Shown here: positions 25,953-59,907 of the stretch, one piece after another | Layout of the letters: every line of letters starts with the position of its first letter | Position numbering within the stretch: the first letter of the stretch is position 1 | Assembly (NCBI GenBank): GCA_021773365.1 | Contig: JAJFKF010000105.1 | Span: forward strand, 1-64,000 | DNA length: 64,000 nt | Source of the DNA: Gammaproteobacteria bacterium | GTDB taxonomy: Bacteria; Pseudomonadota; Gammaproteobacteria; Steroidobacterales; Steroidobacteraceae | Direction: 5' to 3' | Position numbers and translations under genes: made by a program | The notes under the pieces: model-generated | The model's input: the letters and a program-made list of their open reading frames with translations, nothing else | Database searches by the model: none | Told to the model about the DNA's origin: nothing

Positions 25953-25982
25953 AAGACGGCCGAGAGACCCCGAGTGAGAACG
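25953..25982 (-). promoter_or_regulatory. Predicted ECF promoter of TBDT A1
   Basis: Minus strand: CGTTCTCACT (25982-25973), 14 bp, then CGTCTT (25958-25953). The same two blocks at the same spacing precede the sigma gene at 27618. The -35 block is inside the fecR-TBDT gap. A 7-bp inverted repeat (TTGCGTA/TACGCAA, 25931-25949) follows in the leader. Confidence 0.6.
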
Positions 25983-27645: not shown

Positions 27646-27675
27646 AAGACGTTTCAGGGTTGGGAAGTGAGAACG
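27646..27675 (-). promoter_or_regulatory. Predicted ECF promoter of the sigma gene (cassette 1)
   Basis: Minus strand: CGTTCTCACT (27675-27666), 14 bp, CGTCTT (27651-27646), 28-37 bases before the start codon. It shares both blocks and the exact spacing with the TBDT A1 promoter. Confidence 0.6.
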
Positions 27676-31556: not shown

Positions 31557-31584
31557 GTGACGTTGCAGCCCTCGAAAAACCTCA
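31557..31584 (-). promoter_or_regulatory. ECF promoter copy facing away from its sigma gene
   Basis: Minus strand, 28 nt starting TGAGGTTTTT and ending AACGTCAC. It matches the element before TBDT B1 (33182-33209) at 24 of 28 positions with identical spacing. It points left, toward the oxidase-like gene, and not toward the sigma gene at 31668. No coding gene starts just downstream of it. Confidence 0.5.
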
Positions 31585-31667: not shown

Positions 31668-32150
31668 ATGCATGCCCTGTTCGGTCAGCTTCGCCGTCTG
31701 AAGAAACTGCTGCGCCGCCGCGGCGCCAGCAACGCCGACGCCGAAGATCTGGTCCAGGAGGCGGTGCTGCGGCTGCACGTCTACACCAACCAGGGCCACG
31801 AAGTGCGCGATGAGGCCGCCTTCGTGATGCGCACGGCCATGAACCTGGCCATCGACGCGCGCCGCCATGCGCGCGCCGACCGCTATGAATACGAACCGGT
31901 CGAGAAACTCAAGCTCCCGGACATCGGCCCCTCCCCGGATGAGGTTTGTGCCGCCGAGCAACGTCTTATGCGGATGAAGCAGACACTGGATCAGGTCAGC
32001 CCGCGCACCCGGGACATTTTCTTCATGCACCGTCTGCAAGGTCTCAGCCATGAGGAAATCGCTCAACGGCTGGGCATCAGCAAGAGCGCAGTGGAGAAGC
32101 ATATCGCCAGCGCGGTGACCACACTGGCAATGGAGCGGCAACGCGAATGA
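31668..32150 (+). CDS. ECF sigma factor, FecI-like (cassette 2)
   Basis: 160 residues. Region 2 (ASNADAEDLVQEAVLRLHVY; AAFVMRTAMNLAIDARR) and region 4 (QVSPRTRDIFFMHRLQGLSH; IAQRLGISKSAVEKHIASAV), the standard FecI size. The stop overlaps the fecR start by 4 bases (ATGA). Its own promoter is unclear, because the recognisable cassette promoter upstream points the other way. Confidence 0.92.
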   Translation: MHALFGQLRRLKKLLRRRGASNADAEDLVQEAVLRLHVYTNQGHEVRDEAAFVMRTAMNLAIDARRHARADRYEYEPVEKLKLPDIGPSPDEVCAAEQRLMRMKQTLDQVSPRTRDIFFMHRLQGLSHEEIAQRLGISKSAVEKHIASAVTTLAMERQRE

Positions 32151-33184
32151 GTATCGCGGAACAAACCTCTGGCAGACCCGTTTCTCCGGAACGGCTGGCC
32201 GAAGCCGGCGTGTGGATCGCGCGATTGCACGGCGGGGAGCGCGATCACGCACTGGAGAAGGGTTTCAACCACTGGCTGCACGCCCACCCCGAGAACGCCC
32301 AGGCCTTCGAGCTAACCACTGAGGTGTGGGACGAGGCGCCTAACCTGCGCCGGGTCGTGCCGTTTGCCTCGTCCGCGCCGCCTGCAAAGCACATGCCGTT
32401 GCGCCTGGCCTGGGCAGGCGCCCTGCTCGTGGTCATCGCTGTCGTCGCGGGCCTGTATTATTCGAACCTCGACCGGGTCTCCACTGACGTCGGCGAACAG
32501 CGCATGCTGACGCTGGACGACGGCACCCGTGTATTCCTGAACACCGCCACCCGAATCAAGATCAACTTCAACCCGAACCAAAGAACGGTGGTGCTGGAAA
32601 CCGGCGAGGCCCTGTTTGACGTTGCCCGGCATCGTGACCGGCCTTTTGTCGTACTGGCCGGTGACCGCCAGGTCCACGCCCTGGGCACTTCGTTTGTCGT
32701 GCGACGCGAGTCGCGGCGCCTTGCCGTCACGCTCGTCGAAGGCAAGGTGGCGGTAGCCCCCACCGGCAGTACTGCACCGGGACGCCTGGCGAAAACCGGC
32801 CGGCAGCCTCAGGTCGCCGCGCGCGAACAGGTGTTTACACTCACGGCGGGACAACGCCTGACGCTGGTTACCGGTGCACCGCCGCGTGTGGACACGCCGG
32901 TTCTCGACAAGGCGATCGCCTGGCGGCGGGGACAGGTCGTCCTGGACGACACTCGCCTGAGCCAGGCCATAGCCGAAATGAACCGCTACAGTCCAAAAAA
33001 ACTCACCATTGAACAGGCGCAAACCGAACGGCTACTGATCAACGGCCTGTTCCAGGCGGGTGATTCGCTCAGTTTTGCCAATGCCGTGGCGCAAACCTAC
33101 GGCCTGCGCGTAGCCGAGCAAGGCGATGAGATTGTCATCACCGGTCGACCCGCGGCAGCCGAACCCGCGTCCATCCGTCATTGA
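32147..33184 (+). CDS. FecR-type anti-sigma/sensor protein (cassette 2)
   Basis: 345 residues. N-terminal cytoplasmic domain (LAEAGVWIARLHGGERDHAL; HPENAQAFELTTEVWDEA), membrane helix about 86-105, periplasmic FecR domain (RMLTLDDGTRVFLNTATRI; GTSFVVRRESRRLAVTLVEG) and C-terminal STN-like fold (IAWRRGQVVLDDTRLSQAIA). It should link TBDT B1 to the sigma factor just upstream. The stop codon overlaps the TBDT promoter. Confidence 0.92.
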   Translation: MSIAEQTSGRPVSPERLAEAGVWIARLHGGERDHALEKGFNHWLHAHPENAQAFELTTEVWDEAPNLRRVVPFASSAPPAKHMPLRLAWAGALLVVIAVVAGLYYSNLDRVSTDVGEQRMLTLDDGTRVFLNTATRIKINFNPNQRTVVLETGEALFDVARHRDRPFVVLAGDRQVHALGTSFVVRRESRRLAVTLVEGKVAVAPTGSTAPGRLAKTGRQPQVAAREQVFTLTAGQRLTLVTGAPPRVDTPVLDKAIAWRRGQVVLDDTRLSQAIAEMNRYSPKKLTIEQAQTERLLINGLFQAGDSLSFANAVAQTYGLRVAEQGDEIVITGRPAAAEPASIRH

Positions 33185-33209
33185 GGTTTTTGTACGGCTG
33201 CAACGTCAT
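33182..33209 (+). promoter_or_regulatory. Predicted ECF promoter of TBDT B1
   Basis: TGAGGTTTTT at 33182-33191 and CGTCAT at 33204-33209, starting on the fecR stop codon and 37 bases before the TBDT ATG. A near-identical element lies inverted upstream of the sigma gene. Confidence 0.5.
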
Positions 33210-36412: not shown

Positions 36413-38407
36413 ATGACTTACATGAGATCGCTGTACGCGGCGACGGCGCTGACGGTATTCGCCGGCGCCATCGCGCAGGACACCCAACCGGACATGACGA
36501 CCATCGTCACGGAAGATCAGGCCGACCGGAAAAACTTTTCCGAGGCCCAGCAACGGCACACCGCCGGGGATTCCAAGCGCCTCGACAGAGTCAAGGCGCT
36601 GATGGCCGAGATAGAACGTGAAGAACAAGCAGATGAAAAGGAATTCGCAGACCTGCTCGCGGAAATGCAGCGGCGCGATGCGCAAAGACTCAACCAGATC
36701 ATCGAACTGCTGGCCGCGGACAAACTGACCTCGACTCAGGACCTGGAATCAGCTGCCCTGATACTGCAGCACGGCAGCATACCGGAGCATTACCTGCTGG
36801 CCCACGAGATCGGCACCATTGCCGTGCTCAAAGGCGGCACGACACCGCTTGGCGCCTACGCGGAAGATCGTTTCCTGCTGAGCATCGACCGCAAGCAGCG
36901 TTTCGGCAGCCAGTACCACGAGATCAACGGGCAAACGCAACTTCTGCCGTTGGAAGATACTCCCCGAACGAAAGTCACCCCAGCCTTCCGCCAGCGGCAT
37001 CGCATATGGACCCCTCTGGACACGAGCCAACACATGGCTGATCCCCAGCAGGACCTCGGCGAGCCCCAGGGCAGCTTCACCACGGCAGAGCAGGCCCTTG
37101 CGCTATATCACGACGATCAACTCACGCACCCGCAGGATCTGCACCACGCCGCACTGCTGCTGCTCCACAGCGACGATCCGCTGGAGCTGCTGCTGGCCCA
37201 TGAGTTTTCCGCCGCCGCCCTGATGGGTGGAGTCCAGCAGGCAGGACCGGTGTTCGCCCGCACGCTGGACAAATATCTGCTGTCCATCGGCCGACCACAA
37301 CGGTACGCCACCCAGGAGGGGCCGGCCGCGGATACACCAATCATGCCGCTGGTCAGGCGCGTCCTGGATCTCGACGGCACGCAGGCGACACTGGAGCGCG
37401 ACTGGACGACTTTGCAATCGCACCTGCGCGAGTATCCACCCGAGGCCGCACTGCAGGATCAACAGATCCTCGCGCGCTGGGTGGAGAAAAATAGTGCGCG
37501 ACTGCGCGAACTTGCGATGCATTTCTACACCGCCTACCCGCGCGAACCGCGCCGCTGGGATGCGATCGCGGCCTTGCTGCAACGAGCCCCCGCGCAGGCA
37601 ACCGAGCAGAACGAGGCCACTGCTCAGACTCAACAGGCTTGGCTGGAAGAACTACACACCCTGCACGTCGCACTGGAGCGCTCCTCCGACGCCAGCCCCA
37701 AGGCGCGCGAGCAGGCCGCGGCATTCTCCGTTCAACAGGCCCTACTCGGCGCCTATCTGTCACCACAGGACACATCAATCGCACAGATCCGCCATGACCT
37801 TGAGCAGTTCGCGGAACGCTTTCCGCAAAGCGGGAACATTGAACTGCTGGCGGACATGCACCTGAACCTGCTGGAAACTCACCGACCTGACGACCTCGAA
37901 TCCATACTGACCGAGCTGCTGGACAGCCCCAGCCGCACCCTTCGGGAAACGGCCAATGGCCGCATCGAGCGTCACATCCGCGCGCGCAGCGAACCGATGC
38001 AAATGCATTTCACCGCTCTCGATGGACGCGAAGTGGACACGGCTGCACTACGCGGCAAGGTGGTGCTGGTGGAATTCTGGGCCACCTGGTGCAAGCCGTG
38101 CATCGCCGAAATACCCGCCATCAAACGCCTCTACGAGCGCTACCGCGCCGACGGTTTCGAGGTCATCGGCATCGCGCTGGACGAGCAGAAGGATCGCGAC
38201 CGGCTGCTGGAACTCATCGAGGAGCACCGGATCCGCTGGCCGCAGTACTTCGACGGCAAGGGCTGGGACAACCCCTACGTCAAGCGATACGCCATCCACG
38301 CCGTCCCCGCCCTGTTCCTGCTTGACCAGCAAAGCCGGCTAGTCAGCATCCATACAAGCAGCGAACAGCTCGCCGCGGAAGTGCGCGGGCTGCTGGACTT
38401 GGAATAG
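36413..38407 (+). CDS. TlpA-like thioredoxin protein with repeated DUF6624-like N-terminal part
   Basis: 664 residues with an N-terminal signal (LYAATALTVFAGAIAQ). Two related repeats at about 108-180 and 238-311 share the pattern LESAALILQH / LHHAALLLLH, LLAHE, and DRFLLSI-QRFGSQ / DKYLLSI-QRYATQ, as in DUF6624. The C-terminal 140 residues form a TlpA/ResA thioredoxin domain with Cys560-Lys-Pro-Cys563 in ATWCKPC and the cis-proline region HAVPALFLLD. It is likely periplasmic. It follows TBDT B1 by 26 bases; the other class B receptor has a TlpA neighbour too, suggesting a shared role. Confidence 0.85.
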   Translation: MTYMRSLYAATALTVFAGAIAQDTQPDMTTIVTEDQADRKNFSEAQQRHTAGDSKRLDRVKALMAEIEREEQADEKEFADLLAEMQRRDAQRLNQIIELLAADKLTSTQDLESAALILQHGSIPEHYLLAHEIGTIAVLKGGTTPLGAYAEDRFLLSIDRKQRFGSQYHEINGQTQLLPLEDTPRTKVTPAFRQRHRIWTPLDTSQHMADPQQDLGEPQGSFTTAEQALALYHDDQLTHPQDLHHAALLLLHSDDPLELLLAHEFSAAALMGGVQQAGPVFARTLDKYLLSIGRPQRYATQEGPAADTPIMPLVRRVLDLDGTQATLERDWTTLQSHLREYPPEAALQDQQILARWVEKNSARLRELAMHFYTAYPREPRRWDAIAALLQRAPAQATEQNEATAQTQQAWLEELHTLHVALERSSDASPKAREQAAAFSVQQALLGAYLSPQDTSIAQIRHDLEQFAERFPQSGNIELLADMHLNLLETHRPDDLESILTELLDSPSRTLRETANGRIERHIRARSEPMQMHFTALDGREVDTAALRGKVVLVEFWATWCKPCIAEIPAIKRLYERYRADGFEVIGIALDEQKDRDRLLELIEEHRIRWPQYFDGKGWDNPYVKRYAIHAVPALFLLDQQSRLVSIHTSSEQLAAEVRGLLDLE

Positions 38408-38501: not shown

Positions 38502-39661
38502 TTATTGCGCTGCAGGTGCGAGCACTATGCGGTTGGCCTTGTCTATTGCCCGCAGGGAGAAGGCACTTTCCAGGCTGGCGATCCATCTATATTGTCGTTC
38601 ACTATCGTGCCGGTGACCCGCAGGTCGCCGATGCGCTCGTCTTCGAAGACCACAGGTTTATGTGCGTAGCGGTTGACGTCCTGCAGAACGTAGCGTAACT
38701 GCTCGCGCTCGAAGGCAAGACGACCATTTCTCCAGGCGGTGGTCAGCGCCGGGTCGTTGGCATGGCGAGCGGAGTCGAAACCGAACTCGCCGATTGTTGT
38801 TTGATAGCCGGCCTGCAGGCGCCGTGGCAGGCGCTTCATGGAGCGCTCACCAGCCCCGCTCAGGCGCTGCAGCAATGGCACTGTCGGCTCAACCAGAACC
38901 TGCCCCTCCATCACGGCAACCACCACACGATCTGAACTGCGCCTGAGATTGAACTCCGTACCCAGCGCCGTCACTGTTGCCGTGCCTGCACGCACCGAGA
39001 ATGGGCGCTCAGGATCATTCGCCACGGTGAAGAATGCTTCGCCTTCCACCAGGGTGAGCTGACGCGCCGAACTGCTCAGCTTCACCTCCAGGCGTGACTT
39101 CCCGCCCAGGACAACTTCCGATCCGTCCTCCAGGCGCAGCGTGCGGTTTTCGCCAACCAGCGTTTCAATGCTGTGAACAGTGCCCGCTCCGCTATCGACG
39201 AACGCATAGAACAGAGCGCCCACTCCGACTGCACAGAAAGTGGCCGCCGCGGCCAATGTCCACTGCGATCTGCGCCGACCGGCAGGGCGCCCGAGGTAGC
39301 TGCCTATCGGGACGGTGCCATCGTATTGATCCTCACGCAGTTCCTGTTGTCCTGTCAGCGCTGGCTTGCCGATTGCATCAAGGCCGCGCCACACCTCCTC
39401 TATGCGGTGGAACGCCTGTGCGTGCTCGGCCTGCGCAGCCATCCAGTTCTGCCATTGCAGCGTTGCCTGCAGCGAGACATCACCGCCCTGCAGGCGCGTA
39501 AACCATTCAGCGGCTGCCTGATGAATGGGGTCGTGTTCGGAATGAGCCGGTCTGCAGGCTCGAGCGAAGGGATGGTCTTCGCTCGAGCCCGGCAGATTGG
39601 AAGCAATTGTCGCGGTGCCGCAACAGGTTGTACCTGGCTGGCTGCCATTGCCTGATAGCAT
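38502..39661 (-). pseudogene. FecR-type gene with a frameshift and unclear start
   Basis: The body is FecR-like: AAAEWFTRLQGGDVSLQATL, a membrane helix, RTLRLEDGSEVVLGGKSRL, GEAFFTVANDPERPFSVRAG and GTEFNLRRSSDRVVVAVMEG. Near 38583-38586 a one-base loss shifts the frame to SPAWKVPSPCGQ-stop. In the other frame the expected end continues from 38582 as IASLESAFSLRAIDKANRIV and LAPAAQ with TAA at 38504-38502. No ATG, GTG or TTG lies within a normal distance before the first conserved residue, and no sigma gene precedes it. Probably a decayed orphan, unless the shift is a sequencing error. Confidence 0.75.
39557..39589. repeat. Perfect 13-bp inverted repeat with 7-base loop
   Basis: GGCTCGAGCGAAG (39557-39569) and CTTCGCTCGAGCC (39577-39589) around GGATGGT. 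It lies at the N-terminal edge of the fecR pseudogene, about 100 bases before the lipoprotein gene. No T-run on either side, so it is not a textbook terminator. Confidence 0.8.
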
Positions 39662-39692
39662 TCCGGCACAAACCTTTCCGGGAGGACAGAGC

Positions 39693-40328
39693 ATGAGGAC
39701 GCTTTGCATCATCACCTTGATGCTGACTTCAACCGCACTGATAAGCGGATGCGCCGGCACACCGTCACGACCGACTGCCCATATCAAGCATTCAATCATC
39801 TCCTCCGCCCTGGAAAGTCAGACTGAGAGGCGGAACCTGATCGAAGACAACTGGTCCATGCTGGTGCAGTTCAACTTTGTGACCAGCGAACTTATTGACG
39901 CCGCCTCAGCCATCGCCCATGAGGTAAAACCCGATGGCAGCCCCTCCGCCGCCGTTTCCACTGCATTTCATGTGTTCTATCTCCACGACTCAGGCCCCTA
40001 CGTGTGGATCCAGAATCACACTTATTCCGGAAGCAAACCCACGGTGGCAGTAGACGGCCACAGTCCGATCGCACTGCCCCAGGATGGCAGCGTATCCGTG
40101 CAGACGGCGCCACCCGAGCTGATCGACCTAATGCTGCAAGGAGCCGTCATACGGGGCCGCTATGGCGTGCGGTCGCAGAACGATCGGGAATTCATCCTTG
40201 ATCTGCGCGGCTTCCCGCAGGCCTGGGAGAGACTGCAAGTCTCGGCAAGACGGAGATCCGCGGCTATGACACCAGTCGCGATCGAATCGCTCTGGGACGG
40301 ATTGTCCTTTTCGAAATCCACGCAATAG
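39693..40328 (+). CDS. Lipoprotein of unknown function
   Basis: 211 residues. The signal CIITLMLTSTALISGCAG holds a clear lipobox (ISGC). The ATG follows a good ribosome site (GGGAGGACAGAGC). The mature part has no family I recognise; it carries FVTSELIDAASAIAHEV and AFHVFYLHDSGPYVWIQ. It is flanked by the fecR pseudogene and the class A receptor, both on the other strand, so it stands alone. Confidence 0.65.
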   Translation: MRTLCIITLMLTSTALISGCAGTPSRPTAHIKHSIISSALESQTERRNLIEDNWSMLVQFNFVTSELIDAASAIAHEVKPDGSPSAAVSTAFHVFYLHDSGPYVWIQNHTYSGSKPTVAVDGHSPIALPQDGSVSVQTAPPELIDLMLQGAVIRGRYGVRSQNDREFILDLRGFPQAWERLQVSARRRSAAMTPVAIESLWDGLSFSKSTQ

Positions 40329-45725: not shown

Positions 45726-48700
45726 TTACTGGCCGAATCGCTTGCTGAAGGCGATCGAGTAGCGCCGCAGGCGCGGATCGCCTTCGGTGCTGTAGCCCCC
45801 GAAAAGATAGGTGGCGGCGCTGGCCAGTATCGGCGGACTGTGATTGAAGACATTCTGCACTGACACGCGCAGATCAGCGTTCTTCAGCAGGCCACTGGCA
45901 AAGCCGCCGGATCCCTCAAAGCGATACCGCCCGAACACATCATGGTACGCCTGGGTGGGAATCCATTCAGATCCTTGATTGAATATCATGACGTCGCGAT
46001 CATAGTCCGATGCGGTAGCTGCGTAGATCCGGTAACTATCATAGTACTGCATGTTCCATCCCAGACTGAGTGCGCCCCGACTCCAGTGCACGCCGGCATT
46101 GACGCGCCATTTCAGCGGACCATCACCGTATCCCACTTTCTCAATCTCATTGCTGTCCGCCGTGACCTGCTGCTTCAGGTGAGGCTGCAACGTGAAGATC
46201 GCATCCGCCGTGAAATCACCAAGACGCGTCTCCCAGGTGTAGTCGGCCTGGACATCGAAGGCTTCAAGCACGCTGTGGGCAACGTTGACGTTACCGAGAT
46301 TCAGCTCGCGAATCGCGCCGCCGGTGTAGCCCAGCACCGTATCGGCTGGCGTCAGCGGCTCACGCACAATGTACCCGGGAAGATCATCTTCCAGATCGAG
46401 ATAGTTCTGAAATGGCAGCGTGGTGATTTCATCGGCCTTCTCGATTCTCGTGTAATCCACGGATAGCCTGAATCCCGGCAAACTGTCTGGCGTGAGAATC
46501 GCACCGGCTGACCAGCTCTGCGATCGCTCCGAACGCAGCTGCAGGCTGCCAACCAGAGAAAAGCTCTCTACGTTTGCACCCGTAACCGGCAGCCCACCGC
46601 GCTTGGGGTCCGTCAACCCGAAGAACTCAATGTACTCTGTTGGCAGCAGAGCTTCCGAGAGCTGCAGCGGCGAAGGTGGCAGAATCCCTTTACCATAGCT
46701 CACTCGCAAGGCCAGATCCCGCGCTGGCACATAGCGCATACCCAATGTGTACTGATGCCCCGCGACCTTGTTCGTCTGATACGGCACATCGGGAAACGGC
46801 CCATCTGCGGAGGGAATCGATACCTCACCGTCACCCAGCGGACGTGCGCGCGTCTTCGTGCCGTCGTAGCGGTAGGAAGCCTGCAGATCGAGTCCACGCA
46901 GGCCGGTGCGCGCATTTCGCGCCGACACCAGCGGCGCGGTAAGTTCGGAATACACGCTCTCGGTAGTCGCACCGATTTCGGCATAGTACAGGTAGTATGG
47001 ATCTGTGCTGCCCAGGGATCGCAGGGTCAACACCTGATCTCCGGTCAGTTGCTCACGATTCTCCAGCAGGGCCACCAGCCGCAATGGTCCGCCAGGCAAT
47101 TCAAGCAGCGGGCCAGCCAGGCGCAACGTCATATCCTCGTGTGAAACGGGGTAATCCGCCGCTGTCGACGCAACCTGATCAGGCGGGCCGGGATAGTACG
47201 CCGAGAAATCCATAGGGTAGGCATTCACATCACGCAATGGGTCCAGCCTGCCATCGAGCAGCGCAGCCTTTCCATCCTGACTCAGGAATGCACGCGGATA
47301 GTGAAATGCGAACGAAGACAGACTCCAGCTGTACTCCCCCTGCAGTGTCCAATCACGCGGCAATCGCACGATGAGCCCGCCGCTCACCTGCTCGACCCTG
47401 GATTGATGGCGCGTTCGCAATCCGGTGGTATCGTATCCGGGCACGGGTAGCGCAAGCCGCACTGCCTCGGTAAACGGATTATTCGGGCCTGCAGGCAGGA
47501 CAAGGTTCGTGTCTCTTGATGCCTGTCCGCTGCCCACTGCTGAAGCCCGATTGTCGTAACGGGACAAATCCACAAACGCCTGGATTCGCCCGGAGAACTC
47601 GCGCCGAATACTCAAGGAAAACGAGCGCACGGCCGGCGCTGCTATCAGAGAGTATTGACGACCGATCAAATCGTCTGCCAGCCCAAGATTGTACTGCCCG
47701 GCAGTGCTCAGGAAGGCTGCACCACCGTCGCTCGCCGGTCCGGCGTAACCCATGGGCACATGCGCGGTGGGAAAGCCCAGTGATTGCGCACTACCGAGCA
47801 GCACCAGGTCGTTACCACTGACACTCTTGATGTTGGTGGTATAGCCGTGCACTGGTCCCGTCTGGTCAAAGAATGCATCGCGGTTATTGGCATACTGCAA
47901 GGCGCGGGAACGCTCTGCGAATTCACGGTCGCCGAGATACAGTGGACTGGCATCCTGGTAGCTGGCCATGAATGAAATTCCGGTGCGCCCGCCTTCAAGA
48001 TTCAGTCCGCCGGCAACGTCGAGGCGCCGGTCGGCGCCACCGCCCGCGAATGTGTTGTCGTAACGTGCGGTGAGCTCAAGCCCTGAATAGTCGCGTTTGA
48101 GGATGATGTTCAGCACACCGCCCGTTGCACCGCCGCCATAGATGCCACCCGCCGTGGAAGGCAGCACCTCGATACGCTCAACCGCCGAGAGCGGAATGCC
48201 GTTGATATCGGGCTGCCCGAAGTCCACGCTGTCGCTGACGCCAGGCTGGCGCCGGCCGTTGACGAGAATGAGAGTCTGATTGGCGCCCAGGCCACGCAGA
48301 TCGACTGTGCTGCGATTGCCCTGCAGACCACCCAACTCCTGACCTGCGCTTCCACGCACCTGGTTCATTGGCAACCGGGTCTTGAGAAAGGTGTTCAGGT
48401 CCGGCGCCATGGAGCGGTCAATATCCTCTGCATCGAAGACCACATAGGGCTGCACGTCGTCCTCGGTACGGCGAATATCGGTGTTGGAGGTACGTGCGCC
48501 TTTGACAAGCATTTCCGGAATGCCTGCCGAAGAAGGTGGCACCAGCCGCGTATCCTCGTGCTCTTCATCGCGGGTACGCGCGCTGCCGCCATCGTCCTGC
48601 ACCTCGCCTGAAGACGATGACTGGATCCCGGCCAACTGAAGACTATCCGTGGAAAATACCGCGGTGGTCGGAGCCGTTGCGGCCGGCTGCACCGTCACCG

Positions 48701-48965
48701 TCCTCTCATCCAGGTACTTGTACGTCAGCCCGGTGCCCTCCAGCACCTTGGCCAGCGCCTCCTCGGTGCTGAGGTCACCCTTCACACCGGAAGTCCGGAC
48801 CTGCCCCACCACCTCGGTCAGAAACACAATCTGAAAATTGCGCTCCCTGGAAAGCTGCTGCAACGCCGGTTTCAATGCCTGCGCCGGAATATCCACCGGG
48901 GCGGCGGTAACACCGATTGCCAGAACGCTCAGACCGATGACGGCGACAAGGATACGCATGGGCAT
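45726..48965 (-). CDS. STN-domain TonB-dependent receptor, class A (A3)
   Basis: 1079 residues from MPMRILVAVIGLSVLAIG, chosen because AGGGGG lies 3 bases before the ATG. Signal peptide 1-21; STN domain 23-95 (VDIPAQALKPALQQLSRERN); plug start IPEMLVKG 149-156 and RRTEDDVQPYVVFDAEDIDR; VDLRGLGANQTLILVNGRRQ; GIYGGGATGGVLNIILKRDY; barrel ending YSIAFSKRFGQ. Closest in this window to A4 (shared FLKTRLPMNQ/FLRTRLPMNQ and barrel blocks), suggesting tandem duplication. Own promoter predicted at 48995-49024. Confidence 0.92.
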   Translation of the reverse strand: MPMRILVAVIGLSVLAIGVTAAPVDIPAQALKPALQQLSRERNFQIVFLTEVVGQVRTSGVKGDLSTEEALAKVLEGTGLTYKYLDERTVTVQPAATAPTTAVFSTDSLQLAGIQSSSSGEVQDDGGSARTRDEEHEDTRLVPPSSAGIPEMLVKGARTSNTDIRRTEDDVQPYVVFDAEDIDRSMAPDLNTFLKTRLPMNQVRGSAGQELGGLQGNRSTVDLRGLGANQTLILVNGRRQPGVSDSVDFGQPDINGIPLSAVERIEVLPSTAGGIYGGGATGGVLNIILKRDYSGLELTARYDNTFAGGGADRRLDVAGGLNLEGGRTGISFMASYQDASPLYLGDREFAERSRALQYANNRDAFFDQTGPVHGYTTNIKSVSGNDLVLLGSAQSLGFPTAHVPMGYAGPASDGGAAFLSTAGQYNLGLADDLIGRQYSLIAAPAVRSFSLSIRREFSGRIQAFVDLSRYDNRASAVGSGQASRDTNLVLPAGPNNPFTEAVRLALPVPGYDTTGLRTRHQSRVEQVSGGLIVRLPRDWTLQGEYSWSLSSFAFHYPRAFLSQDGKAALLDGRLDPLRDVNAYPMDFSAYYPGPPDQVASTAADYPVSHEDMTLRLAGPLLELPGGPLRLVALLENREQLTGDQVLTLRSLGSTDPYYLYYAEIGATTESVYSELTAPLVSARNARTGLRGLDLQASYRYDGTKTRARPLGDGEVSIPSADGPFPDVPYQTNKVAGHQYTLGMRYVPARDLALRVSYGKGILPPSPLQLSEALLPTEYIEFFGLTDPKRGGLPVTGANVESFSLVGSLQLRSERSQSWSAGAILTPDSLPGFRLSVDYTRIEKADEITTLPFQNYLDLEDDLPGYIVREPLTPADTVLGYTGGAIRELNLGNVNVAHSVLEAFDVQADYTWETRLGDFTADAIFTLQPHLKQQVTADSNEIEKVGYGDGPLKWRVNAGVHWSRGALSLGWNMQYYDSYRIYAATASDYDRDVMIFNQGSEWIPTQAYHDVFGRYRFEGSGGFASGLLKNADLRVSVQNVFNHSPPILASAATYLFGGYSTEGDPRLRRYSIAFSKRFGQ

Positions 48966-48994: not shown

Positions 48995-49024
48995 TAGACG
49001 GCGACTTCAACAAAAACAGACAAT
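48995..49024 (-). promoter_or_regulatory. Predicted ECF promoter of TBDT A3
   Basis: Minus strand: ATTGTCTGTTTTT (from 49024), 11 bp, CGTCTA (49000-48995), in the 64-base fecR-TBDT gap. The sigma gene promoter at 50562-50591 has ATTGTCCTTTTCT, 11 bp, CGTCTA, at the same spacing. Confidence 0.6.
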
Positions 49025-49029
49025 ACGCA

Positions 49030-50013
49030 TCAAGGATTCGCCTCGATTGCCACCCCACCTGCATGCTCGCGCACTCGCATGCCGGGCAATGTCGCCAGGA
49101 AACTAATCAGTGAGCGCGGATCTGCCGAATCGAAGCGTGCGGTAACCGACAAATGCTCCAGCTCCGGGTCAAGCTGCAGACGACTGCGGCCAACGCGGTT
49201 GAACTCCGCCACCACTTCAGCCAGCGTCGCATCGTCAAACACCATCTCGCGCCGCTTCGTCCAGGCCGTTACAGTCGCAACATCGGTGGACTTCGGCGCC
49301 GTGATTGACGCTGCCGTGGCCACCACCTGCTGTCCTGCCGTCACCACCGACGAGCGATCTGCCCCCTGTACCGCCACGCGGCCTTCGACCACCGTCACCG
49401 TTACGCCCGTCGCCTGCCGCTCCACGTCAAAACTGGTGCCCAGAGCCTGCACTCGCGTGCGGCTACTCCTGACGACAAAGGGCCGACTGGTGTCCGCAGC
49501 GACTTCAAACAACGCCTGCCCCCTCAGCAGGTCAATGCGCCGTTCGCGCTGGCTGAAATGCAGACGGATCTTTGATCGCGCATTCAGATGCACCGCCGAA
49601 CCGTCCTTCAACTGCAAGGTGAACAGCTCGCCACTGCGGGTACCATATGTCGGCGTAGTGAGATATGAGATCCCCACAAACGCCAGCACCGCGCAGGCAG
49701 CGATGGCTGCCGCCGCGACAAGGCGCTGCGAGCGCCTGCGGGCGCCAGTCCGGCGCCCCGCAGAAGGCCCCGCCGCTGTGGCATTCAGTGCCGTGACGTT
49801 GTCCTCGCGCGCCACCTGCTCCAGCAGTTGCGCCACCGGTACCTTTGTCAGCCCTGCGCTGTCCTCCCACGCCGTCACCGCCTGCAGATATGCCCGGATG
49901 TTCTCCGGCGAGCGGCGCAGCCAGGCATCGAGCTTCCTGCGCGTGCCGGCGGTGGCCTCTATATCCAGCTCGACCAGAAAATCCACCGCTTCCTCGTAGG
50001 TCTGCCTGTTCAT
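49030..50013 (-). CDS. FecR-type anti-sigma/sensor protein (cassette 5)
   Basis: 327 residues. Cytoplasmic domain (YEEAVDFLVELDIEATAGTR; RRSPENIRAYLQAVTAW), which lacks the usual AxxW start motif; membrane helix about 98-118; FecR domain (FTLQLKDGSAVHLNARSKIR; GQALFEVAADTSRPFVVRSS; GTSFDVERQATGVTVTVVEG); C-terminal STN-like fold (DDATLAEVVAEFNRVGRSRL). The ATG overlaps the sigma stop by 4 bases. Confidence 0.92.
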   Translation of the reverse strand: MNRQTYEEAVDFLVELDIEATAGTRRKLDAWLRRSPENIRAYLQAVTAWEDSAGLTKVPVAQLLEQVAREDNVTALNATAAGPSAGRRTGARRRSQRLVAAAAIAACAVLAFVGISYLTTPTYGTRSGELFTLQLKDGSAVHLNARSKIRLHFSQRERRIDLLRGQALFEVAADTSRPFVVRSSRTRVQALGTSFDVERQATGVTVTVVEGRVAVQGADRSSVVTAGQQVVATAASITAPKSTDVATVTAWTKRREMVFDDATLAEVVAEFNRVGRSRLQLDPELEHLSVTARFDSADPRSLISFLATLPGMRVREHAGGVAIEANP

Positions 50014-50531
50014 GCTGGCTCCCTGCCCAGTCGCCGCGTCAGGTGGCCGACGGCCTGCTTGATGTCGTTCTTGACCGTATTCGGATGCACCCCGTGGAGC
50101 CGGGCAATCTTCTCGTGATTCATTCCATGTACCCGGTACAGCAGAAAGCTCGCATACACCCGCGGCGGCAGCTCCTGCAATATCTGCTCGGCCTGCTCGA
50201 CGCGGCGCTGCGCATCTGCCTGCGCCACCGGGTCCTCACTGGCCCACGCCTCTGGTCCGTCCGACGCCAGGCGTACCGGACCTCCGTCCGTGTGCGCCTT
50301 CGCGTGCCCCATGTCGTGCAACGTATGCGCCGCCACCTGAATGACATAGGCCTCAGGGTTGCGCACCGTCTCCTGCTCCCGCCGACGGATAATGCGCAGG
50401 TACACCTCCTGCACGACGTCATCAATGGCATGTTTCGCGCCACGCAGCCGCGCCGCCACGAAACGGCGCAGACTGCGCCCGTGGTCGCGGGCGATGGCAT
50501 CGGCAAGGCTACGGCTTTCAGGTACGTTCAC
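50010..50531 (-). CDS. ECF sigma factor, FecI-like (cassette 5)
   Basis: 173 residues from a GTG at 50531. Region 2 (LRGAKHAIDDVVQEVYLRII; PEAYVIQVAAHTLHDMGHAK) and region 4 (LQELPPRVYASFLLYRVHGM; IARLHGVHPNTVKNDIKQAV). A predicted self-promoter lies 31 bases upstream and matches the promoter of TBDT A3. The gap from here to the M14 gene (258 bases) holds no other gene I can support. Confidence 0.9.
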   Translation of the reverse strand: MNVPESRSLADAIARDHGRSLRRFVAARLRGAKHAIDDVVQEVYLRIIRRREQETVRNPEAYVIQVAAHTLHDMGHAKAHTDGGPVRLASDGPEAWASEDPVAQADAQRRVEQAEQILQELPPRVYASFLLYRVHGMNHEKIARLHGVHPNTVKNDIKQAVGHLTRRLGREPA

Positions 50532-50561
50532 GGGGACTGCGGTTTTCAGGGTCTGTCAGGG

Positions 50562-50591
50562 TAGACGGGTTTGACGGGAGAAAAGGACAAT
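50562..50591 (-). promoter_or_regulatory. Predicted ECF promoter of the sigma gene (cassette 5)
   Basis: Minus strand: ATTGTCCTTTTCT (from 50591), 11 bp, CGTCTA (50567-50562). It matches the promoter before TBDT A3 in both blocks and in spacing. Confidence 0.6.
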
Positions 50592-55166: not shown

Positions 55167-55238
55167 TAGTCGCTGCCGGCGGCGATTCTTTAGGTACCTC
55201 TGCGCCGCAACCTAAAGAATCCGTACTTCGAGCGTCTA
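55167..55238. promoter_or_regulatory. Predicted back-to-back ECF promoters of TBDT A4 and sigma (cassette 6)
   Basis: ACCTAAAGAATC occurs once on each strand as a perfect 12-bp inverted repeat (55184-55195 and 55210-55221). Exactly 11 bp downstream of each copy lies CGTCTA (plus, 55233-55238) or CGACTA (minus, 55172-55167). The arrangement gives one promoter per direction. Confidence 0.65.
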
Positions 55239-58740: not shown

Positions 58741-59907
58741 TCAGTTCGCGCTATCGGCCAGCAGGCGCCTGACCTCCGTTCCCAGCGTCTCTCCGCGGGC
58801 ATTGGTGCTCACCAGCCGCCCGCTCTTGTCAAACAGGTACATGGCGGGTATTGCGGTAACGCCGTATTTCTGGGCGATCTCGTTCCTGAAGTGCTTGCCG
58901 TCGAAGTGCTGCGGCCAGGGCATGTCCCTCTTGGCGACAAAGTCGATCAGCTTCTGGCGATCTTCGGCCTTGTCGAGCGAAACCCCAACCACCTCGAAAC
59001 CCAGGTCGTGATACTTCCTGTAGTTGGCGGTCACGTTGGGCAGCTCGGCCACACACGGGCCGCACCAGGTCGCCCAGAAATCCACCAGCACCACCTTGCC
59101 GCGCAGCCTGGCCAGATCCACCTTGCGCCCATCCACTGCGGTGAAGGCCAGCTCGAGCGGTGTCTCGCGCAGCTGCTCGGTCCGCAGCGCCCCCTGCGCC
59201 CACTGGGCGACGCCTGGATTTGGATCGCCGGCCTGCTTTTCCAGATAGGTCAACACCTCCGTCGGATTCACGCGCCGCAGGCGACCCAAGTACTGCCACT
59301 CTAACGTCTGCAGCCGCTTCATCTGGGGAAATTCCGCACGTACCATGTCGATGCGCCCGCGCAACGCCGCCAGGGCCGCGGCATCCGCCTTCTGCGTGTG
59401 CATCTCTCCCACCAACTTCTCCACCCAATGCCAGTAGGCCTCCTCGCGGTTCTTTGCCGGGACGCCGGTTGCGGCGATCAACTGCTCAAGCAGCGCATCG
59501 ACCTTTTTCGACCAGGCCTGCTCCACCACCTCGTCGCGAACCAGCGCCTTCCAGCCCTGCTCGCGCACGTCGCCGATTGTCTTGTAGACCGGCCGGTAGA
59601 CTTTGGCCAGCGCCACCACCGCGTCCCAGTGGCGCGAATCGCCTGGATACTGCTCGACGAACTCCATCAGCAGATCGCCGAGCGCCGCGCCACGCTGCGC
59701 ACGTGCTTCAATATATTCCCTTGTCAGGACAACCTCGTCTCCGGCGCGCTCCAGCTTGGGCTCGGGACTTTTCTGCAGTTCCTCGATGCGGTTCCACAGC
59801 TCCGCGGCCGGGATGGATGCGGCCTGCGAGCCGCCGGGCGGCATCCATATCATCAGGCAGGCAACCGCCAGTAGGGGGCCTCTCATGGCAAGCGTTTGAT
59901 TAATCAT
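58741..59907 (-). CDS. TlpA family thioredoxin-like protein
   Basis: 388 residues with a signal peptide (MRGPLLAVACLMIWM region). Helical N-terminal domain about 35-245; TlpA/ResA thioredoxin domain from about 250 with Cys282-Gly-Pro-Cys285 in ATWCGPC and the cis-proline region TAIPAMYLFD. It begins 24 bases after the TBDT B2 stop, so the two form an operon, the same order as TBDT B1 with its TlpA protein. The N-terminal domain differs from that of the other TlpA protein. A start at 59886 is possible. Confidence 0.88.
   Translation of the reverse strand: MINQTLAMRGPLLAVACLMIWMPPGGSQAASIPAAELWNRIEELQKSPEPKLERAGDEVVLTREYIEARAQRGAALGDLLMEFVEQYPGDSRHWDAVVALAKVYRPVYKTIGDVREQGWKALVRDEVVEQAWSKKVDALLEQLIAATGVPAKNREEAYWHWVEKLVGEMHTQKADAAALAALRGRIDMVRAEFPQMKRLQTLEWQYLGRLRRVNPTEVLTYLEKQAGDPNPGVAQWAQGALRTEQLRETPLELAFTAVDGRKVDLARLRGKVVLVDFWATWCGPCVAELPNVTANYRKYHDLGFEVVGVSLDKAEDRQKLIDFVAKRDMPWPQHFDGKHFRNEIAQKYGVTAIPAMYLFDKSGRLVSTNARGETLGTEVRRLLADSAN

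Follow-up and report, generated by a model that had tools for sequence, protein, structure and literature searches.

Paralogous regulators must avoid crosstalk once they have duplicated, and how they do so is a long-standing question that has mostly been studied in small sets of paralogs or by comparing genomes. The question arises within a single cell at cassette 5 of the 64,000-nucleotide stretch of DNA analysed here (the window), which encodes an ECF sigma factor, a FecR protein and a TonB-dependent receptor (TBDT) and carries a similar two-block element before both the sigma gene and the receptor gene. The original prediction took these blocks for a private promoter code, in which a shared -10 is joined to a cassette-specific -35 that insulates the circuit. 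Are the two elements promoters of the cassette's own sigma factor, and would such a code keep this circuit apart from its relatives? The features concerned are the following.

50562 to 50591, minus strand: predicted promoter of the sigma gene, ATTGTCCTTTTCT-N11-CGTCTA, with core TGTCCTT, -10 CGTCTA and a GTG start about 30 nt downstream
50010 to 50531, minus strand: ECF sigma factor of 173 aa with Sigma70_r2 and Sigma70_r4_2; its K154 is taken to be the equivalent of sigmaE R171
49030 to 50013, minus strand: FecR (DUF4880 and FecR domains), presumed anti-/pro-sigma regulator
48995 to 49024, minus strand: predicted promoter of the TBDT gene, ATTGTCTGTTTTT-N11-CGTCTA, with core TGTCTGT, -10 CGTCTA and a probable ATG at 48965, about 30 nt downstream
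45726 to 48965, minus strand: TBDT with STN signalling domain and Plug

Sigma70_r2 and Sigma70_r4_2 both exceed their cut-offs in this short protein of 173 aa, which identifies it as an ECF sigma factor, and the gene content is that of FecI-like signalling, with an adjacent FecR that carries DUF4880 and FecR domains and a TBDT with an N-terminal STN domain (Pfam; STN 1.4e-10, Plug 4.8e-16). Against the FecI equivalog NF041727 the sigma factor scores 44.8 bits, the cut-off being 260, and it is therefore FecI-like and not FecI. The listed open reading frame of the receptor begins at 49064, upstream of the receptor's own promoter. Translation is likely to begin at 48965 or 48959 instead (MPMRILVAV..., a signal peptide). 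The promoter then falls in the gap that follows the FecR stop (49030) and precedes the TBDT start, and the -10 lies about 30 nt from the start in both the sigma and the TBDT gene.

Both elements were found on the minus strand where they had been predicted, before the sigma gene and before the receptor (TBDT A3), with common blocks and spacing. In full, the sigma element reads ATTGTCCTTTTCT-CCCGTCAAACC-CGTCTA and lies 5' of the sigma ORF (50010-50531), and the receptor element reads ATTGTCTGTTTTT-GTTGAAGTCGC-CGTCTA and lies 5' of the TBDT gene. Their -35 blocks are identical at 10 of 13 bases and their -10 blocks at 7 of 7 (CGTCTAC), across an equal gap of 11 bases. Within the 7-nt core of the -35 only 5 of 7 bases are common to the two copies (TGTCCTT and TGTCTGT), so that most cassettes illustrate the pattern better than cassette 5 does. 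As claimed, its -35 also differs from that of cassette 1, where the core is TTCTCAC. The genome of 3.97 Mb contains the exact pattern ATTGTC-N18-CGTCT at two places, both of them in cassette 5, and the genome-wide motif scan that had been suggested as a check, run with the 30-mer at up to 3 mismatches, returned just the same two sites (the reversed control pattern gave 2 matches).

Cassette 5 belongs to a large array. The genome holds at least 150 FecR domains among the matches listed, and the genes recovered around FecR matches comprise 145 sigma, 154 FecR and 145 STN-receptor genes, with 138 sigma/TBDT cassettes paired (72 collinear, 66 divergent). In relatives from the family and order, 39 genomes altogether, the corresponding figure runs from 0 to 13, and a class-wide survey of 274 genomes gave 175 first-look candidates here and at most 14 elsewhere. 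One FecR match (C57:38920-39195) contains two in-frame TGA codons and is probably a decaying copy. In the window, a FecR gene at 38543-39799 (minus strand) stands without an adjacent sigma or receptor gene of its own, and TlpA/ResA-like thioredoxin-domain proteins (36413-38407, plus strand; 58741-59907, minus strand) directly adjoin the TBDT genes of two different cassettes.

Promoter pairs were scored over two blocks (13+7 bases, gap 8-12) in the 135 bases preceding each gene. Cassette 5 is its own best pair at 17/20, and at least 17/20 is reached by 0.17% of mismatched cassette pairs. Among own pairs this level is reached by 18 of the 72 collinear cassettes and by 32 of the 66 divergent ones (50/138), and in coding and far-upstream control regions by 0-1 of 66-72. 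An anchored model whose training set left out cassette 5 gave 16 mismatched pairs, of 18,906, that score as high as cassette 5, and none of these includes its sigma or TBDT promoter. At a 1% null threshold the anchored model called 81 of 138 cassettes, 13 of them new; a sigma/TBDT promoter pair is detectable in about 99 of 138 cassettes (86 aligned plus 13 called later), leaving about 39 without. With a CGTC anchor required on both sides, 60 of the 138 cassettes were lost, and the -10 is therefore not always CGTC. An unrestricted search with 8+5 blocks returned, in divergent cassettes, inverted repeats read on both strands, so that overlapping DNA was excluded afterwards, and testing k-mers for enrichment over the opposite strand brought out no clear motif. 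Among the FecR cassettes of relatives, a pair at 16 or more was present in just 2 of 27, which makes the promoter pairing largely peculiar to the source lineage; a search of the 39 related genomes at E<=1e-25 found no relative of the cassette 5 sigma factor. With the pair so rare among relatives, footprinting of orthologs cannot confirm the promoters.

The private part of the code is compact. In 86 aligned cassettes, whose pairs were picked for similarity over the 13+7 bases (a choice that inflates absolute concordance and leaves the contrast between columns within the blocks unaffected), seven adjacent -35 positions (-35 to -29) agree within cassettes with a kappa of 0.81-0.95. Across cassettes, the information is 0.02-0.12 bit in six of these positions and about 0.5 bit in the first. 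A T-rich tract common to most cassettes lies 3' of the core, and the spacer shows no agreement within cassettes (kappa ~0), which excludes copied flanks as the cause of the core agreement. The two 7-mer codes of a cassette lie 0-1 base apart in 77 of 86 cassettes, and 79 distinct codes are found on the sigma side. Before the shared -10 core T-C-T-(A/T), about three (3-4) positions are partly private: five cassettes have the -35 TGAGGTT in common and differ in the triplet before the TC of the -10 (AAC, CTG, GGC, GTG, CCC), and specificity is therefore bipartite. The predicted cassette-specific -35 with a commoner -10 is thus real genome-wide, but CGTCTA/T is not present in every cassette and the core is T-C-T-(A/T); likewise, the -35 core is private, but it does not set specificity alone, as the bases right before the -10 core are also cassette-specific.

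Code distance drops as sigma identity rises. Across all cassette pairs a Mantel-type test found little correlation (rho ~0.1), because codes saturate below 40% sigma identity, and binned distances were used instead. Privacy of the code is not complete: sigma pairs above 70% identity mostly have the same code. This sharing bears on the rival reading that survives best, according to which the elements are real ECF promoters recognized widely across sigma factors, the code tuning strength and not insulating. Some -35 codes are indeed common (the five TGAGGTT cassettes and several sister pairs), as is, broadly, the -10 core, and chance similarity is not rare, since for 48% of cassettes the TBDT code of some other cassette is at most 1 mismatch away; yet codes of different cassettes differ on average at about 5 of 7 positions (mean 4.98), and just 45 of 18,906 off-diagonal pairs in the 138x138 comparison reach the score of the 50/138 own pairs. 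Where the -35 is common, the 2-3 bases before the -10 add specificity, and published ECF sets show high promoter orthogonality (PMC3817407). We hold wide cross-recognition to be unlikely.

If the core is private, what reads it? When 13 promoter columns were compared with every variable sigma column for covariation, base -31 (the fifth of the 7-mer) and residue 154 (cassette 5 numbering) came out on top, with a z of 15.7 that is partly phylogenetic and is followed by values of 11.5 and 7.2. A glutamate (E) at this residue goes with G, a lysine (K) with C and a neutral residue mostly with A. In the 13 later-called cassettes, which were held out, the rule (E/D with G, K with C) was correct at both sites in 7 of 8 (binomial ~0.002 from a base frequency of ~0.31), and in independent sister pairs a base change accompanies a change of residue class in 8 of 9 versus 9 of 28 (p = 0.004). 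Cassette 5, with K154, has C at -31 in its sigma site, as K predicts, and T in its TBDT site, which deviates. Residue 154 aligns with R171 of sigmaE and K170 of SigW. ECF residues have reportedly been related to promoter bases by Todor and colleagues in 2020. As -31 covaries with a residue of the recognition helix, the -35 core is, so far as the sequences tell, read by sigma region 4.2 across the genome-wide set, with the TBDT site of cassette 5 deviating at -31.

Crystal structures agree with this assignment. R171 of sigmaE and K170 of SigW contact the template G'-31 of a 7-nt -35 element that extends from -35 to -29 (PMC6713349); the seven private columns coincide with this structural footprint, and the pairing of K with C is the one that the structures lead one to expect. 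Unlike SigE and SigW, the present set frequently has E at this residue, paired with G at -31, or a neutral residue, which often goes with A, so that one contact is read in alternative ways.

The covariation also weighs on the possibility that the elements are operators of a repressor or activator, such as a Fur-like or other local regulator, and not sigma promoters. Paired elements in divergent cassettes do form inverted repeats that look like operators, and canonical fec promoters contain Fur sites (PMC9249621); the elements are nevertheless directional, with promoter-like spacing and a T-C-T-(A/T) core, their variable positions track the contact residue in region 4.2 of the adjacent sigma factor, and FecR is the sole constant regulator across cassettes. 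We regard the operator reading as very improbable. Functionless leftovers of upstream-region duplication are hardly credible at all, for although the cassettes are products of many duplications and close relatives have common promoters, the two blocks are conserved within a cassette while spacer and flanks are not (kappa ~0), and a single sigma residue predicts -31, held-out cassettes included.

We therefore return to the promoter reading, and consider it highly probable that both elements are promoters of the FecI-like ECF sigma factor of cassette 5, read via a private -35 and a partly private -10. Substrate binding to the STN-type TBDT would signal through FecR and free or activate the sigma factor; together with RNA polymerase, the sigma factor would then transcribe the receptor gene and the sigma-fecR operon, which amounts to positive feedback. 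Region 4.2 would read the cassette-particular 7-nt core (-35 to -29) and region 2 the -10, where the T-C-T-(A/T) core is common and the preceding 2-3 bases are partly particular. The same logic would recur across most of the 138 cassettes, the codes diverging along with their sigma factors, so that cross-recognition should stay limited to the closest paralogs. Transcription from the elements, the FecR and TBDT signalling steps, autoregulation and functional insulation are what we infer from sequence, and insulation of the circuits would here mean sequence-level orthogonality.

The cassettes fall into three layouts, which are strongly clustered on the sigma tree. The other cassettes of the window with predicted promoters represent them as follows.

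25953 to 25980, minus strand: TBDT promoter of cassette 1, TTCTCACT...CGTCTT
27646 to 27673, minus strand: sigma promoter of cassette 1, TTCTCACT...CGTCTT
31557 to 31584, minus strand: reversed promoter copy of cassette 2, upstream of the sigma gene (31668-32150) and facing away from it
31940 to 31967, plus strand: candidate third copy of cassette 2, inside the sigma gene (region 2-4 linker) and facing FecR
33182 to 33209, plus strand: TBDT promoter of cassette 2, TGAGGTTTTT...AACGTCAT
55167 to 55194, minus strand: TBDT promoter of cassette 6, CCTAAAGAAT...GCGACTA, back to back with the sigma promoter
55211 to 55238, plus strand: sigma promoter of cassette 6, CCTAAAGAAT...GCGTCTA

In the collinear group that contains cassettes 1 and 5, the promoter copy faces the sigma gene, which predicts self-regulation. 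Divergent cassettes (cassette 6 and about 40 others) carry two near-identical copies back to back, mostly with 3-25 bases between the -35 edges, so that two polymerases are probably unable to bind simultaneously. A second collinear group of about 22 cassettes, cassette 2 among them, has the sigma-side copy reversed; at 16/20 or more, reversed copies occur in 20 of 72 collinear cassettes, with about 1 expected. The idea of a self-directed sigma promoter thus applies to part of the cassettes but not to these 22 or so. As to a gene driven by the reversed promoters, no conserved outward ORF was found, and most copies face no divergent gene.

In eight of the 22 cassettes of the reversed group the sigma gene itself contains a third copy, which points to FecR and falls between +241 and +260 counted from the domain start; mismatched codes give 3.8%, a control that is imperfect because codes are alike within the group and the region is coding. 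The third copy could possibly provide separate expression of the regulator (FecR). In Streptomyces a bound sigma factor has been reported to act as a barrier (PMC10771440), and on one reading the reversed class might exert negative feedback on the sigma factor via FecR together with promoter interference. In several cassettes of the reversed class (for example C31-11999, C57-9625, C86-69351, C152-460), the DNA that separates the reversed promoter from the sigma start contains a recurring GCGAAATAT-like sequence, perhaps a basal sigma promoter.

The predicted cognate promoters before sigma genes depart from what is described for this type of sigma factor. According to review literature, fecIR lacks autoregulation and FecI acts at a single promoter (PMC9249621); absence of autoregulation in FecI-like sigma factors is also described elsewhere (PMC8103513), as it is for HemI of Stenotrophomonas (PMC12772443). 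Promoter mining for ECF sigma factors omitted the FecI-like groups on the view that they lack autoregulation (PMC3817407). Cognate promoters are predicted here before many sigma genes, including that of cassette 5, and self-promoters in dozens of cassettes are therefore unexpected. With the E. coli FecI/FecR/FecA system and the FecI-like ECF groups (ECF05-10 in the older scheme) the cassettes have in common an ECF sigma factor, a DUF4880 FecR and an STN TBDT, with the sigma factor predicted to drive the receptor; they differ in the predicted cognate promoter of many sigma genes and in their number, about 140 in one genome.

Two other systems offer parallels for the code itself. The ECF orthogonality set of Rhodius et al. 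2013 (PMC3817407) likewise has bipartite -35/-10 specificity, with low crosstalk expected from sequence, but was drawn from many genomes and subgroups, whereas the present array is one FecI-like expansion in one cell. Clostridial SigI/RsgI systems (PMC6056542), with 8-16 paralogs per genome, also combine a common promoter part with a divergent, specificity-setting -35 and limited crosstalk; SigI, however, belongs to another sigma family, which binds the -35 through a domain of a different kind; its paralogs are roughly tenfold fewer, and its anti-sigma and sensing parts differ.

Altogether, the original interpretation appears largely right, with corrections for the bipartite code, the sharing of codes by close paralogs and the reversed class. 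With about 140 FecI-like sigma factors in one cell, most of them with at least two predicted cognate promoters, specificity becomes readable and testable as a code, and since FecI-like sigma factors were omitted from promoter mining, the source genome supplies the missing promoter data. The array would amount to a naturally occurring collection of distinct signalling channels, with lock-and-key rules that are legible from sequence. We give an even chance to the broader proposal that this bacterium holds about 100 mutually insulated channels of one receptor, one sigma factor and one promoter, mostly self-amplifying, which would have arisen as cassettes duplicated and region 4.2 then changed in step with the -35 core of two promoters at the same time. 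If true, this would be the largest natural orthogonal sigma/promoter set in a single cell known to us, and its cassettes are candidate orthogonal parts for circuit design. As for the organism itself, its receptors may indicate that it lives by scavenging a very wide range of nutrients.
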